Shown here piece after piece: positions 18,967 through 40,964 of a DNA stretch of 41,019 nucleotides; position 1 is the first letter of the stretch; the number at the start of each line of letters is the position of its first letter. The DNA lies in assembly GCA_020350285.1 (NCBI GenBank), contig CP070708.1, positions 865,055-906,073 of the forward strand, in the 5' to 3' direction. The notes beneath the pieces were generated by a model. The model saw only the letters and a program-made list of their open reading frames with translations, did no database searches and was not told the DNA's origin. The DNA comes from Anaerolineaceae bacterium. GTDB taxonomy: Bacteria > Chloroflexota > Anaerolineae > Anaerolineales > E44-bin32. Made by a program: the position numbers and the translations under genes.

Positions 18967-19153
18967 TCAGTAGTCAGATGTATGTAGTCAGTAATCAGAA
19001 ATCTACACTCGGTAAAATATGGTCAGGCTGATAAGTTACAGTCTACGTCGAGAGACAGGATTGAAATAAACTACTAATACCTGACCACTGATGTCTGACT
19101 GCTGACTACTGCCTACTGATCTCTGATTACTGACATCAGACGACTGAAACCTG
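18967..19153. repeat. Inverted heptad array D1 (CAGNNNT / ANNNCTG)
   Basis: From 18968 at least five consecutive 7-base units follow, four of them CAGNNNT (for example CAGTAGT, CAGATGT, CAGTAAT). From 19077 to 19153 there are eleven units in the complementary form ANNNCTG, nearly all in strict register. About 75 bases of non-repetitive DNA lie between. The arms can pair partly, for example CAGTAATCAGA with TCTGATTACTG. The array begins directly after the stop at 18964-18966 and ends 23 bases before phzF. Confidence 0.85.
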
Positions 19154-19176
19154 ATCGCTAAACAAGGAGAAAGGGC

Positions 19177-19992
19177 ATGGGAATAAAGATTTACCAGGTT
19201 GACGCATTCACGGAACTGCCTTTTAAAGGCAATCCGGCTGCGGTTTGTCTTCTACATGAACCACGGGACGAAACGTGGATGCAGAATGTGGCGAAAGAGA
19301 TGAACCTGTCGGAAACGGCCTTCCTCCATCGTCGGGAAGAAGGCTTCAATCTGCGTTGGTTTACACCTGCGGTCGAGGTTGAATTGTGCGGTCATGCCAC
19401 ACTTGCCAGCGCACACGTTCTTTATGAAACCGGTTTGCTTGATGAACAGGAACAAGCGCGGTTCCACACGCTCAGCGGCTTATTGACGGCAATCAGAAGG
19501 GACGAGCAGATCGAATTGAATTTTCCCGCAAGACCTGACGAACCGGCAAGCGCCCCACCGGGTTTACTCGAGGCGCTAAGCGTTGTCCCAAAATACGTCG
19601 GCAAAACCAAGTATGACTATCTGCTGGAGCTGGACTCGGAGGAAGCGGTAAGGAACTTGAGCCCTGATTTTGCGATGTTAAAAGCGCAGGCAATTCGAGG
19701 GGTCATGGTCACGAGCGTTGCATCAACGGAGGGTTTCGACTTCGTGTCGCGGTTCTTTGCACCAGGTGCTGGGATAGATGAAGACCCAGTGACGGGAGCG
19801 GCGCATTGCTGCCTGGGTCCTTACTGGCGCAGACGCCTCGGAAAAGACGAGTTCGTTGCCTATCAAGCGTCGGCTCGCGGGGGTATCGTACATGTCCGCG
19901 TGGAAGGTGAGCGGGTGATTCTGGGAGGCCACGCGGTGACCATTCTGCGCGGGGAGTTAACAGATGTCAGTAGTCAGTATTCAGATGTCTGA
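19177..19992 (+). CDS. PhzF-family isomerase
   Basis: 271 residues of the PhzF/YddE fold (diaminopimelate-epimerase-like). Signatures are IYQVDAFTELPFKGNPAAVC, the catalytic Glu46 in MNLSETAFL, FTPAVEVELCGHATLASAHVL, and FDFVSRFFAPGAGIDEDPVTGAAH. True PhzF isomerises a phenazine precursor. No phenazine genes are present, so the substrate is unknown. The ribosome site AAGGAG is clear. The last nine codons and the stop (19963-19992) lie inside heptad array D2, giving a C-terminal DVSSQYSDV that is repeat-derived rather than family sequence. Confidence 0.85.
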   Translation: MGIKIYQVDAFTELPFKGNPAAVCLLHEPRDETWMQNVAKEMNLSETAFLHRREEGFNLRWFTPAVEVELCGHATLASAHVLYETGLLDEQEQARFHTLSGLLTAIRRDEQIELNFPARPDEPASAPPGLLEALSVVPKYVGKTKYDYLLELDSEEAVRNLSPDFAMLKAQAIRGVMVTSVASTEGFDFVSRFFAPGAGIDEDPVTGAAHCCLGPYWRRRLGKDEFVAYQASARGGIVHVRVEGERVILGGHAVTILRGELTDVSSQYSDV

Positions 19993-20019
19993 CTACTGGC
20001 TACTGACTACTGAATACTG
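19961..20019. repeat. Inverted heptad array D2
   Basis: Four CAGNNNT heptads (19961-19988), the triplet CTG, then four heptads ending CTG (19992-20019, such as ACTACTG). It overlaps the end of phzF and supplies its stop codon. It leaves the next gene (20028) only eight bases, with no Shine-Dalgarno sequence. Confidence 0.88.
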
Positions 20020-20027
20020 ATAAAACC

Positions 20028-28538: not shown

Positions 28539-30725
28539 ATGAAGATTCTTGAAGACTTGAACCCTCAGCAGCGAGTGGCGGTCACCACTCCACCGGGACC
28601 GGTGTTGGTGCTCGCTGGCCCTGGTTCAGGAAAAACCCGTGTCCTCGCTCATCGCATAGCATATATGATCGACCACCTCAACATCCGACCAAGCGAGATC
28701 GTTGCGATGACCTTCACCAACAAAGCCGCACGTGAGATGGCAGCGCGTGTTCGGGATCTCCTCGACCCTGAGGCCACCATCCAAGCTGCGGCACCAAAGG
28801 GCATAAGCATGGGCACTTTTCATGCGTGGTGTGCCCGCATGCTACGCCGTGAGGCCGATTTGTTACCCGTTACCCGTGAGTTTGTGATCTACGACGAAAG
28901 CGACCAGCACGCCCTCGTTCGCCAAGCGCTCAAGGAGATCAACCTCGATCCGAAACAAGTACAGCCCTCTCGCGTGCATGGGGTGATCTCACGCGCGAAG
29001 AATGAGTTGATCGAATTTGACACCTTTGCTGCCGAAACCTACTTCGCTGAGATCGCTCGCCGCGTTTATGAGCGCTACCAACAATTGCTGCTGGAGAATA
29101 ACGCTTTCGATTTTGACGATCTTTTGTTATGGGTGGTGCGATTGCTGCGCGATCATGATGAGCTACAGGCTAAATATCGCTCCCAGTACCCTCATATCCT
29201 GGTTGACGAGTTTCAAGACACCAACACGGCTCAATACGTCCTGCTCCGATTAATGGCCGGGGAGGAACCAGATCTCTTTGTGGTCGGTGACCCTGATCAA
29301 TCCATTTACCGTTGGCGTGGAGCCGATTACCGTAATGTGCATCGCTTTGAGGACGATTATCCACAGGCAAAAGTCTTCCTCCTCGAGCAGAACTACCGAT
29401 CCACCCAAACCATCCTCGATGCAGCGATGGCGATCATCGATCGCAACCCTGGACGACAACAGAAGAAGCTGTTCACTGAAAGAGGGGATGGGGTGCCCAT
29501 CGTCTTCAACGAAGCCTACGACGAGAACGACGAGGCTAATTTCATCATCGAAACTATCGCCAATCTGACCTACAGTAAGCAAGCCGAACCGGGTGACTGT
29601 GCTGTTATGTACCGGACCAATGCTCAATCGCGGGCATTAGAGGAAGCGTTTCTCCGAGCCGGGTTGCCTTACCGATTGGTCGGTGCCCAACGGTTTTATG
29701 GTCGTCGAGAGATCAAGGATCTGATCGCCTACCTGCGCCTGATCCATAACCCCGTTGATCAAGTAGGTTTGTTGCGCGTGCTCAACACACCACCGCGTGG
29801 GATCGGGGCTAAAACGGTCGACGCACTTCTCGAAACCGCGTCTCGTGCCGACCTACCCACAGCGGAAGTGTTGCTTGATCTCGCTGACGGTGAGGATTCT
29901 GAGTTCGCTGGCGTATTCGCTGCGCGGGCCAGAACAGCATTATCAGGATTCGGCAGGGCACTCAAGGGCTGGATCGATGTGCGTGACAAAGTCCCCCTCG
30001 TCGGACTGATTGACGACGTGCTCGAAAAGACAAGTTACAGAGAATATATCGACGACGGCACCGAGGAGGGCTATGAGCGTTGGGCGAACGTATTGGAGTT
30101 GCGCGGCGCGGCGGAGGAGTTCGAGGACGTCGGGCTGACCACTTTTCTTGAACACGTCGCCCTCGTCTCCGATCAGGACACGTTGACCGAAACCCAAAAC
30201 GCCCCGACGTTGCTCACCCTACACGCAGCAAAAGGGCTCGAATTTCCGGTTGCCTTCATCATCGGATTGGACGACGGCGTTCTCCCCCATCAGCGCTCCT
30301 TCGAAGATCCTGAGGCGATGGAGGAGGAGCGGCGCCTTTTCTACGTCGGAATCACTCGAGCGATGGATCGCTTGATCCTACTGCGAGCCTTCCGTCGACG
30401 ACAGGCGGGGGTTTCTTCCCTGAGCACCCCGTCTCGATACCTTGAGGATCTCCCTCCCGATCTCGTGGAGGGCAACTTGAATACACACAGGAGCTGGGAA
30501 CAAGCCCTCTACCAACGCCAAACACGTTGGGACGCAAGCCCATCACGACCCGTAGAAGCTCGTTACCGGGTTGGGATGCGTGTGCTCCACCCAACCTTTG
30601 GAGAAGGCATCGTGATGGCTACGGAAACAGATCTCGACGATGAGGAGGTCACGGTTGAATTCGAGGGGGGTGAAACCAGACACCTGATCGCGTCACTCGC
30701 TGGGCTTACGATACTGGAGAAGTAG
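28539..30725 (+). CDS. UvrD/PcrA-type superfamily 1 DNA helicase
   Basis: 728 residues, the usual size of PcrA/UvrD, a 3'-5' DNA helicase for repair and replication restart. In order: LNPQQRVAV (Q motif), Walker A AGPGSGKT at 26-33, MTFTNKAAREM (Ia), DEFQDTN at 223-229 (II), GDPDQSIYRWRGAD (III), EQNYRST (IV), TLHAAKGLEFPVAFIIGLDDG (V) and RRLFYVGITRA (VI). The last 60 residues (VGMRVLHPTFGEGIV to HLIASLAGLTIL) are the C-terminal domain that binds RNA polymerase in PcrA. No ribosome site is close to the ATG; the nearest purine block is in the hairpin at 28506-28516. The stop codon's last base begins array E. Confidence 0.93.
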   Translation: MKILEDLNPQQRVAVTTPPGPVLVLAGPGSGKTRVLAHRIAYMIDHLNIRPSEIVAMTFTNKAAREMAARVRDLLDPEATIQAAAPKGISMGTFHAWCARMLRREADLLPVTREFVIYDESDQHALVRQALKEINLDPKQVQPSRVHGVISRAKNELIEFDTFAAETYFAEIARRVYERYQQLLLENNAFDFDDLLLWVVRLLRDHDELQAKYRSQYPHILVDEFQDTNTAQYVLLRLMAGEEPDLFVVGDPDQSIYRWRGADYRNVHRFEDDYPQAKVFLLEQNYRSTQTILDAAMAIIDRNPGRQQKKLFTERGDGVPIVFNEAYDENDEANFIIETIANLTYSKQAEPGDCAVMYRTNAQSRALEEAFLRAGLPYRLVGAQRFYGRREIKDLIAYLRLIHNPVDQVGLLRVLNTPPRGIGAKTVDALLETASRADLPTAEVLLDLADGEDSEFAGVFAARARTALSGFGRALKGWIDVRDKVPLVGLIDDVLEKTSYREYIDDGTEEGYERWANVLELRGAAEEFEDVGLTTFLEHVALVSDQDTLTETQNAPTLLTLHAAKGLEFPVAFIIGLDDGVLPHQRSFEDPEAMEEERRLFYVGITRAMDRLILLRAFRRRQAGVSSLSTPSRYLEDLPPDLVEGNLNTHRSWEQALYQRQTRWDASPSRPVEARYRVGMRVLHPTFGEGIVMATETDLDDEEVTVEFEGGETRHLIASLAGLTILEK

Positions 30726-30905
30726 GGATCAGGGATTAGGGATCGGGGATCAGGAACTGATAGGCACCAAGGCACTTGGACACCGGGGCACTAAGGCAGC
30801 AGGATTGTGATCACAATCACTAGGTGCCGAGGTGCCAAAGTGCCCAAGCGCCTTACTAATCCCTAATCCCCAATCCCTGATCCCTAGTTCTTTATCCCCA
30901 ATCCC
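30725..30905. repeat. Compound inverted array E: heptads and octads around a 16-bp palindrome
   Basis: From the left: four heptads GGGATNN (30725-30752), four or five octads of GGCACNNN type (30763-30802), the perfect palindrome GATTGTGATCACAATC (30803-30818), four octads NNNGTGCC (30821-30852), and four heptads NNATCCC (30857-30884) with two more at 30892-30905. The right side is the reverse complement of the left, module by module. The element begins on the last base of the helicase stop codon and runs to within 50 bases of galE. Confidence 0.85.
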
Positions 30906-30924
30906 TTTTCACCCCATTGAACGC

Positions 30925-39053: not shown

Positions 39054-39086
39054 ACCTCCCCGCGAGCTTAAAGCTCGCGGGGAGGT
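39054..39086. repeat. CTCCCCGCGAGCTT dyad, copy 2 (perfect)
   Basis: Arms ACCTCCCCGCGAGCTT (39054-39069) and AAGCTCGCGGGGAGGT (39071-39086) pair perfectly around one base. It is the same family as 1507-1539. It stands just downstream of the oxidoreductase gene that ends at 39124 on the minus strand and could stop its transcript, though no T-run follows. Confidence 0.8.
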
Positions 39087-39771: not shown

Positions 39772-39864
39772 CCAATTCTCCAATGTAAGTACGGCGAATT
39801 ATATCAGTCCTCTTATAGGTAAAATTACCTTGATCAGTGCACCAGGATATGCGAAGATGGGCTT

Positions 39865-40027
39865 CAGATGTCAGTAGTCAGATATCAGTAGTCAGACTTA
39901 AGACATCTTAGCAATTAGCTATCAGCGCTCAGTAGTCAGCAACCAAAAGTATATCGGTTTTAATTCGGATATCGGACTCAAAGAAAGTATTGAAGTCTGA
40001 GTACTGACTACTGACGTCTGACTACTG
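39865..40027. repeat. Inverted heptad array D3
   Basis: Five CAGNNNT heptads (39865-39899) are followed by a nine-base break and five more units in register (39909-39943). At 39993-40027 there are five ANNNCTG heptads. The outer arms pair over about 28 bases (39871-39899 with 39993-40028), with two mismatches and one extra heptad on the right. The element fills the divergent gap and ends 13 bases before the Memo-like gene. Confidence 0.88.
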
Positions 40028-40040
40028 AGAAGGTAACGCC

Positions 40041-40916
40041 ATGAAACGTGATCTTCCGGATTTCAAAACTCAGACGATCAGCGAACATGCCCGATTAGGG
40101 ACAGAAGGTGCTGTTCATCTCCTTGATGCCGGGCGAACCTGGAACCTCGCCCCCGCCTTACAAGCTGGCGGATGTGTGATTTTCCCTCACGCTGGATTGG
40201 AGGTATGCGGACACCAGATCGCCGCGGCAGTCCATGCCTGCTTAGATTGCGGAGCTGAACGTGTATTGGTCATCGGCGTACTTCACGCGCTAACACAAGA
40301 GTTAGAAGATGCGCGAGTGCGCGTCGCCCAAGGGTCGGATGTCACCCAGGAGCCGAGTTGGGGCATTCAGGGACCAGGGTTGGATGGTCGAGAGGATTGG
40401 CGTGATGAGTTCTCGCTGTTGAATTTCTTGTTTCTGTGGGAGGAAGAGACGAAACGACGAGGCATCCCTGGACCGGAGTTGGTGATACGTTACCCCTACT
40501 TGGCTGGTGGACGACCTGATATCTTACCTGGAATAGAGGAGGTGCAGGACATCGTTCGCAATGCGGTTGTCGTCGCCACGGCGGACCCATTTCATCATGG
40601 CATCGGGTACGGTGATCCACCTGAAGAATCCCTGGCGCCGGAGGAGGGAGGATTAGTTCTGGCGCGCCGGCGTATTGAAGAGGGGTTGGAACTGCTTCGT
40701 GTGGGAGATTATTGGGGCTACAACCAACATTGCGTGGATGCGAAAAGCGATGCCCGTGATGCGGGCCAAGTGCTTCGGTTTCTGCTTGGGCCGCTGGAGG
40801 GCAAAATTCTCGATATCGTCTCGGACGACATGACGGAGCCTTACAACAAACCCGCACCGACGTGGGTTGCCGGCGCGCTAATTGAAATGCTACCTACAGT
40901 AGTCAGTAATCAGTAG
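40041..40916 (+). CDS. Memo-family protein
   Basis: 291 residues. The metal-site residues of human MEMO1 (H49, H81, H192, C244) have counterparts: H50 in FPHAGLEVCGHQ, H82 in VIGVLHAL, D182 and H185 in ADPFHHG, and probably C231. The family relates to extradiol dioxygenases; its bacterial job is unknown, and it often travels with AMMECR1 and radical SAM genes, not seen here. GAGAAGG precedes the ATG. The C-terminal VVSNQ and stop codon are encoded by heptad array D4. Confidence 0.72.
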   Translation: MKRDLPDFKTQTISEHARLGTEGAVHLLDAGRTWNLAPALQAGGCVIFPHAGLEVCGHQIAAAVHACLDCGAERVLVIGVLHALTQELEDARVRVAQGSDVTQEPSWGIQGPGLDGREDWRDEFSLLNFLFLWEEETKRRGIPGPELVIRYPYLAGGRPDILPGIEEVQDIVRNAVVVATADPFHHGIGYGDPPEESLAPEEGGLVLARRRIEEGLELLRVGDYWGYNQHCVDAKSDARDAGQVLRFLLGPLEGKILDIVSDDMTEPYNKPAPTWVAGALIEMLPTVVSNQ

Positions 40917-40948
40917 TCTGACTACTGACATCTGACTACTGACTACTG
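40897..40948. repeat. Inverted heptad array D4
   Basis: Three CAGNNNT heptads, the triplet CTG, then four ANNNCTG heptads, all in register. CAGTAGTCAG and CAGTAGT pair with ACTACTG and CTGACTACTG across one 4x4 internal loop. The stop of the Memo-like gene (40914-40916) lies in the third heptad. Confidence 0.9.
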
Positions 40949-40964
40949 AAAAAGGAAAGAAGAC

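Follow-up and report, generated by a model that had tools for sequence, protein, structure and literature searches.

Heptad-armed inverted repeats in an Anaerolineaceae genome look like a mobile-type repeat akin to known seven-base repeats

For decades, heptanucleotide repeats have been on record in bacteria and, to our knowledge, there is no agreement on their origin. Small mobile repeats, which are relevant here, were reportedly described in cyanobacteria by Elhai et al. in 2008. In Geobacter metallireducens, the class 3 sites are opposite-strand pairs of five tandem heptanucleotides, MTYCTGA, present at eight places and read there, as a hypothesis, as putative sites of an IHF/HU-type global regulator (PMC2700814). 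CTGA-type heptads have been described in Nostoc (PMC2408588), and cyanobacterial 7-bp STRRs are described as hairpin-forming, with transcript stability or translational coupling discussed as possible roles (PMC2670836). The TAACTGA repeats of the Beggiatoaceae form single, non-degenerate direct arrays just upstream of start codons, with one inverted case in 170 (PMC4679880). An RNA-level role has been suggested both for the cyanobacterial STRR hairpins (PMC2670836) and for the TAACTGA repeats (PMC4679880).

The arrays considered here, found in a 41,019-base stretch of an Anaerolineaceae genome (the window; the 3.4-Mb genome that contains it is called G000), share features with each of these systems. 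As in the Geobacter class 3 sites, tandem CTGA heptads stand in inverted pairs whose spacing varies, with a fixed CTGA, three degenerate positions and an intergenic location, an example of which lies between proB and proA in Geobacter; the published account of that system differs in giving eight pairs of a single unit type, in reporting neither a core family nor a step-of-seven comparison, and in its MTY triplets, where the present arrays have the reverse complements of TAN and AYN (PMC2700814). A preliminary description of the window had held that no inverted, degenerate version of the cyanobacterial heptanucleotide STRRs was on record, which these Geobacter pairs contradict. The STRR and csR1 repeats of heterocystous cyanobacteria are likewise 7-bp repeats in spacers, and csR1.1 (ttgtcagttgtcagttgtca) and csR1.3 (ccactgactactgac) are TCAG/CTGA heptads (PMC2408588, PMC2670836), but they are mostly near-exact direct repeats, and a description of the inverted, degenerate, cored design is lacking there. 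With the Beggiatoaceae repeats the arrays have in common intergenic heptads of the CTGA type, there CTGA plus TAA, and differences in 7-nt steps, reported between Cyanothece strains (PMC4679880). The arrangement of those repeats, a forward unit upstream of start codons, does not describe the present arrays, in which CTGA plus TAA is rare, the arms are paired and no side bias is apparent. REPINs and MITEs are also short, extragenic, non-autonomous inverted-repeat units with a variable spacer and a dispersed distribution (PMC3116915). Their arms are a fixed 16-mer or a fixed terminal repeat (PMC3116915), whereas those described here are tandem heptads, and the present elements have neither a RAYT link nor a TA target duplication. 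The heptad hairpins look like a small mobile-type repeat akin to known seven-base repeats and not like a wholly new system. What appears to be new, against the open-licence literature, is a dispersed design with cores, pairing that ignores the register, alternation with a 14-base period, an inward polarity that is uniform across phyla, and inversion in place.

All four arrays, D1 to D4, were re-found in the window where the preliminary description had placed them (Table 1). Chains of CAG or CTG with exact 7-base spacing formed 8 runs of three units or longer, where 0.4 would be expected, and 6 of four units or longer, where 0.0 would be expected. The expectation was taken from 50 second-order Markov sequences, and the other spacings from 4 to 15 bases, 7 and 14 set aside, gave 0-2 runs each. 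D1-D4 are made of 7-base units repeated head to tail above chance. There is no single exact unit sequence, as only TCAG is constant and the triplets vary. The statement that CAG and the final T are fixed is slightly overstated, because the D1 left arm includes the degenerate heptad ATGTATG and the outermost units frequently read ACAG or CCAG. The triplets that had been named (TAG, ATG, TAA and ATA) are present, together with TAT, ACA, ACG, ATT, TAC and others. The arms of D2 and D4, said to be separated by 3 bases, in fact abut, with 4 bases from CAG to CTG. For D3, the outer arms had been proposed to pair across about 28 bases, with a whole extra heptad on one side. The RNA fold (MFE -58.4 kcal/mol, z -6.1) agrees: the extra unit is the outermost one of the left side, and the first 7 bases are unpaired. 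No Rfam family was found in the window, and neither terminator-like T tracts nor promoter-like sites were present at D1-D4 beyond shuffles.

Table 1. Coordinates of the heptad arms and cores, and of an element of another class, within the window.
Feature	Position	Strand	Description
D1 left arm	18967..18998	+	TCAG-type, 5 heptads, one degenerate; begins directly behind the upstream gene's TAA stop
D1 core	18999..19080		82 bases; no similarity to other cores found
D1 right arm	19081..19154	-	CTGA-type, 11 heptads, 9 exact; ends 22 bases before the phzF-like start codon
D2 left arm	19960..19988	+	4 heptads within the 3' end of the phzF-like ORF
D2 right arm	19989..20020	-	5 heptads; holds the TGA stop of the phzF-like ORF; next gene begins 7 bases on
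D3 outer left arm	39864..39899	+	5 heptads
D3 inner left heptads	39922..39939	+	AGCGC, AGTAG class
D3 core	39940..39996		24 bases 87.5% like the core of element G000:C1:1711321, an unrelated locus
D3 right arm	39997..40028	-	5 heptads; ends 12 bases before the start codon at 40041
D4 left arm	40896..40917	+	3 heptads = last codons and TAG stop of ORF 40041-40916
D4 right arm	40918..40949	-	5 heptads
Other-class element	30724..30906		inverted heptads of GGGATTA type on the outside, inverted GGCACYAA-like octads inside them, GATTGTGATCACAATC as palindromic centre

The gene at 40041-40916, which is bracketed by D3 and D4, has no Pfam or PDB match, and its only sub-threshold match is AmmeMemoRadiSam system protein B. 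Among the matches listed it has no DNA match in the related genomes G001-G004, and where the flank is available in G002-G004 the oxidoreductase neighbour stands without it.

A search of the complete genome, as the preliminary description had proposed, gave matches far above the reversed control. The strict pattern TCAGTAGTCAGNNNTCAG has 45 copies in G000 against 0 for the control and the loose pattern TCAGNNNTCAGNNNTCAG has 113 against 5. With the listing of elements, these counts uphold the idea of a repeat class, present throughout the genome, in which some positions are fixed and others vary. Same-genus genomes hold 43, 12, 7 and 0 copies of the strict pattern, one further genome of the family outside the genus has 3 matches, and 21 of the 301 genomes in a scan of the phylum have any match. 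Since the counts across genus, family and phylum are so uneven, we regard the repeat as lineage-rich and patchy.

In an element, TCAG-NNN heptads make up the left arm and CTGA-type heptads the right arm, usually with a core between the two. The core is 0 to about 150 bases long, usually 50-67, and some elements, such as G000 2561435-2561515 and 1465208-1465257, have an additional inner layer of TCAGC-NN heptads. The arms always face inward, with TCAG on the left and CTGA on the right: within the genus there are 41 FR and 0 RF cases, counts that include orthologous copies from several genomes and so are not all independent, and outside the genus, in other phyla among the matches listed, there are 28 FR and 0 RF cases. 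This architecture of arms and core, the cores common to several loci, the unmatched unit order of the two arms and the cross-phylum polarity were all missed in the preliminary view of the arrays. By gene calls from a simple ORF rule, 67 gaps between called genes hold an element and 2 elements lie well inside a called gene; the median gap is 158 bases with an element and 53.5 bases without. Typically the element starts 0-17 bases from a stop codon and ends just upstream of an RBS. The flanking genes are co-directional in 55 of the 67 element gaps, similar to the background of 218/282, and elements also occur between divergent and convergent genes. A start-codon-side bias of single arms, as in the Beggiatoaceae, is not apparent in the element listing.

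Comparison with relatives bears out the suggestion that units are gained and lost in sevens. Unit number at the same locus differs between species, and it does so in whole units; of 93 indels that lie within elements and measure 4 bases or more, 38 are multiples of 7 (about 25 orthologous pairs). D2 has an orthologous element in the sister species G001 with an equal number of units and different triplets. G001 lacks D1 at the orthologous site, where both flanks are 84-87% identical and the spacer measures 34 bases against 208 in G000. This empty site does not correspond to a clean insertion, as a 23-base G001 spacer has been replaced.

Outside the window, the element at G000 3113732-3113835 is inverted with respect to G001:C66 between collinear flanks. 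Turning the element raises the alignment score from 474.5 to 537. The arms then differ only by +7 and +42 bases, of which the +42 amounts to three 14-mers, and roughly three quarters of the core positions match. At this locus ATATCATACAGTAG is found at both ends of the element in G000 and at one end in G001, a pattern that may have arisen by template switching across the palindrome. This was the one clear inversion among about 30 orthologous comparisons; inversion between inverted repeats, a feature of invertible switches, is seen here at one locus and between species. Single genes bracketed by elements, together with apparent rearrangements at elements, had also prompted the idea of gene-cassette or integron-like shuffling. 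G000 consists of contigs linked to one another by stretches of exactly 100 N, these joins were excluded from inference, and the shuffling idea was dropped because the apparent rearrangements of L038-L039-L040 cross them. Beside one heptad element lies a 204-aa gene (L034:4033-4647; G000:C1:63532-64146) that is missing from the collinear region of G001:C44.

The cores are related to one another more often than expected, with 22 pairs matching at E<=0.01, where shuffled cores give 0.4. Core families include unrelated loci, for example G000 2560445, 2566126 and 3251085, and also D3 with 1711321, and homologous copies are thus dispersed over unrelated loci, as in MITEs generally. Several cores are singletons, and some orthologous elements have unrelated cores (G000 2566126 and G001 C49). 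At 3 mismatches, a single copy of GGCAACATATCTAGGACACCAATCTGA, the end of the family-1 core, is present per genome, which indicates that each core family is small and in part local. Family-1 core copies are grouped in one gene neighbourhood, a clustering that fits local conversion as well as transposition, and gene conversion between neighbouring elements is possible.

The elements fold strongly. Compared with dinucleotide shuffles the mean MFE z is -4.85, and 95% of elements have z < -2, and permuting the triplets within arms leaves the folding unaltered (z 0.07+-0.15). This indicates that pairing is due to the constant frame of TCAG and CTGA together with a small set of interchangeable triplets. 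Any arm can pair with any other, and the hairpin is independent of register. In triplet order the left and right arms show 52 matches, compared with 48.6+-2.7 for permuted units (p 0.135) and 51.2+-3.7 with arms swapped between elements. We had considered arm-arm covariation as proof of a selected stem and rejected it, as there is nothing beyond permutation. The triplets are mostly of the TAN and AYN types and alternate along the arms, with 207 unlike neighbours against 152+-7 expected and 14 A-A neighbours against 34.7+-4.1 expected. From this alternation, the higher unit is the 14-mer TCAGTAGTCAGAYN.

We think it moderately probable that each array pair is a dispersed, non-autonomous, REPIN- or MITE-like intergenic hairpin whose arms are heptad microsatellites. 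Such an element would spread as a unit, we infer, either by a candidate mobilising activity or by recombination or gene conversion between elements, and its arms would lengthen and shorten by 7 or 14 bases through replication slippage. Because every TCAG unit can pair with every CTGA unit, the hairpin would survive slippage in either arm, and the same universal pairing would invite template switching and in this way explain the inversion of cores. The comparison of orthologous sequences supports slippage by 7 or 14 bases, template switching induced by the hairpin, and inversion of the core. Insertion would be tolerated only between a stop codon and an RBS, where the arms also provide stop codons, and an effect on the mRNA, if any, is unproven and would be secondary. 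No transposase or recombinase tied to the elements was found. A Tc1/IS630-like MITE with a TA target was considered and rejected on the counts for a TA target-site duplication, since TA precedes the outer CAG at 11/127 ends and is found at both ends in 1/45 elements.

A different and, in our opinion, unlikely explanation is that the arrays are paired sites for a putative DNA-bridging or DNA-bending protein, with arms that are bound independently, an inverted orientation that allows looping and a core free to vary in length. In favour of this are arms that need no matching order, the strict polarity, the TAN/AYN alternation with its 14-base register, and the identical layout of the published Geobacter class 3 sites (PMC2700814). 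However, elements are gained and lost at orthologous loci and cores are common to several loci; moreover, the position of the elements tracks gene spacers and not promoters, as the proportion of co-directional neighbours indicates, and no protein is known. We are equally sceptical of an RNA-level hairpin within polycistronic mRNA that acts on transcript stability, on translation coupling or insulation, or by attenuation. The strength of the hairpins and their position between co-directional genes, at the RBS, would suit this role, but it is opposed by an arm order unmatched beyond chance, by the lack at D1-D4 of T tracts or promoters exceeding shuffles, by the elements between divergent or convergent genes, and by single arms with no apparent preference for the start-codon side.

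The design has an independent counterpart in Firmicutes. In Pelotomaculum, Desulfotomaculum and relatives, arms of TCAGGAG and TCAGTAG and of CTGAATT and CTGACTC surround one constant core. This core, TCAGAATAAGAGAAYGGTTT, has 7-25 copies per genome in 5/6 Firmicutes genomes, and the reversed control has 0. In an alignment of 24 copies, conservation drops outside about 110 bases; the element ends near GTAACTA...TAGTA(AC), the family ends being GTAACTAYTCAGG, and the left arms extend 1-4 heptads beyond the core. Judged by its sequence, the family appears to match the expectation for a small dispersed element with microsatellite arms, and the 110-base Peptococcaceae element is a concrete family in which to seek mobility and the responsible enzyme. 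The 18-mer TCAGTAGTCAGTAGTCAG occurs in at least 120 stretches of named genomes, with carriers among the matches listed in Cyanobacteria, Chloroflexi, Planctomycetes, Firmicutes, Bacteroidetes and others.

Tentatively, and with considerable doubt, we raise the possibility that the heptad-armed hairpins of this genus, of Peptococcaceae-type Firmicutes, and of Cyanobacteria, Chloroflexota, Planctomycetota and others form one cross-phylum class of small mobile elements, with a common mobilising enzyme or replication process and with the core as lineage-specific cargo. If this were true, the degenerate arms would keep the hairpin foldable under slippage, and the common TCAG...CTGA polarity would reflect the common enzyme or replication process. 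Three separate curiosities, the cyanobacterial STRRs, the TAACTGA repeats and the Geobacter paired sites, are linked by these observations, and heptad repeats are recast as the arms of dispersed hairpins with defined cores, one polarity and a testable evolution. Pure local mutation, in which slippage and palindromic template switching would generate spacer microsatellites with no mobility, seems to us very unlikely. It would readily give expansions in 7- and 14-base steps, as well as inversion and flank copying at one locus, but not homologous cores at unrelated loci, the constant 110-base Firmicutes element or the identical words in many phyla (among the matches listed).

Finally, the idea that a Y1 (RAYT) transposase moves the arrays as REPIN or REP elements is scarcely credible as an explanation and already largely refuted: two inverted arms, a less conserved spacer and an extragenic location are indeed as in REPINs (PMC3116915) and GTAG is present in the arms, but Y1_Tnp does not follow the arrays (G004 has 9 hits and no arrays, G002 has arrays and no hit), and no Y1 gene among those examined has heptads at its flanks, while two have the palindrome CTCCCCGCGAGCTTAAAGCTCGCGGGGAG there. 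Since Y1_Tnp (RAYT-like) genes both at G000:C1:1352210 and at G004:C16:12804 are flanked by this palindrome, we take gene and palindrome for an ordinary REP/RAYT pair that has nothing to do with the heptad elements. In the window the palindrome is perfect at 39056-39084 and has one mismatch at 1509-1537.

The related element of another class at 30724-30906, in which the inverted arrays are nested (Table 1), forms a strong DNA hairpin (fold z -7.9), and a second array of the GGGATTA class is located at G000:C1:2333628. This suggests that there are several heptad and octad alphabets with one common layout.
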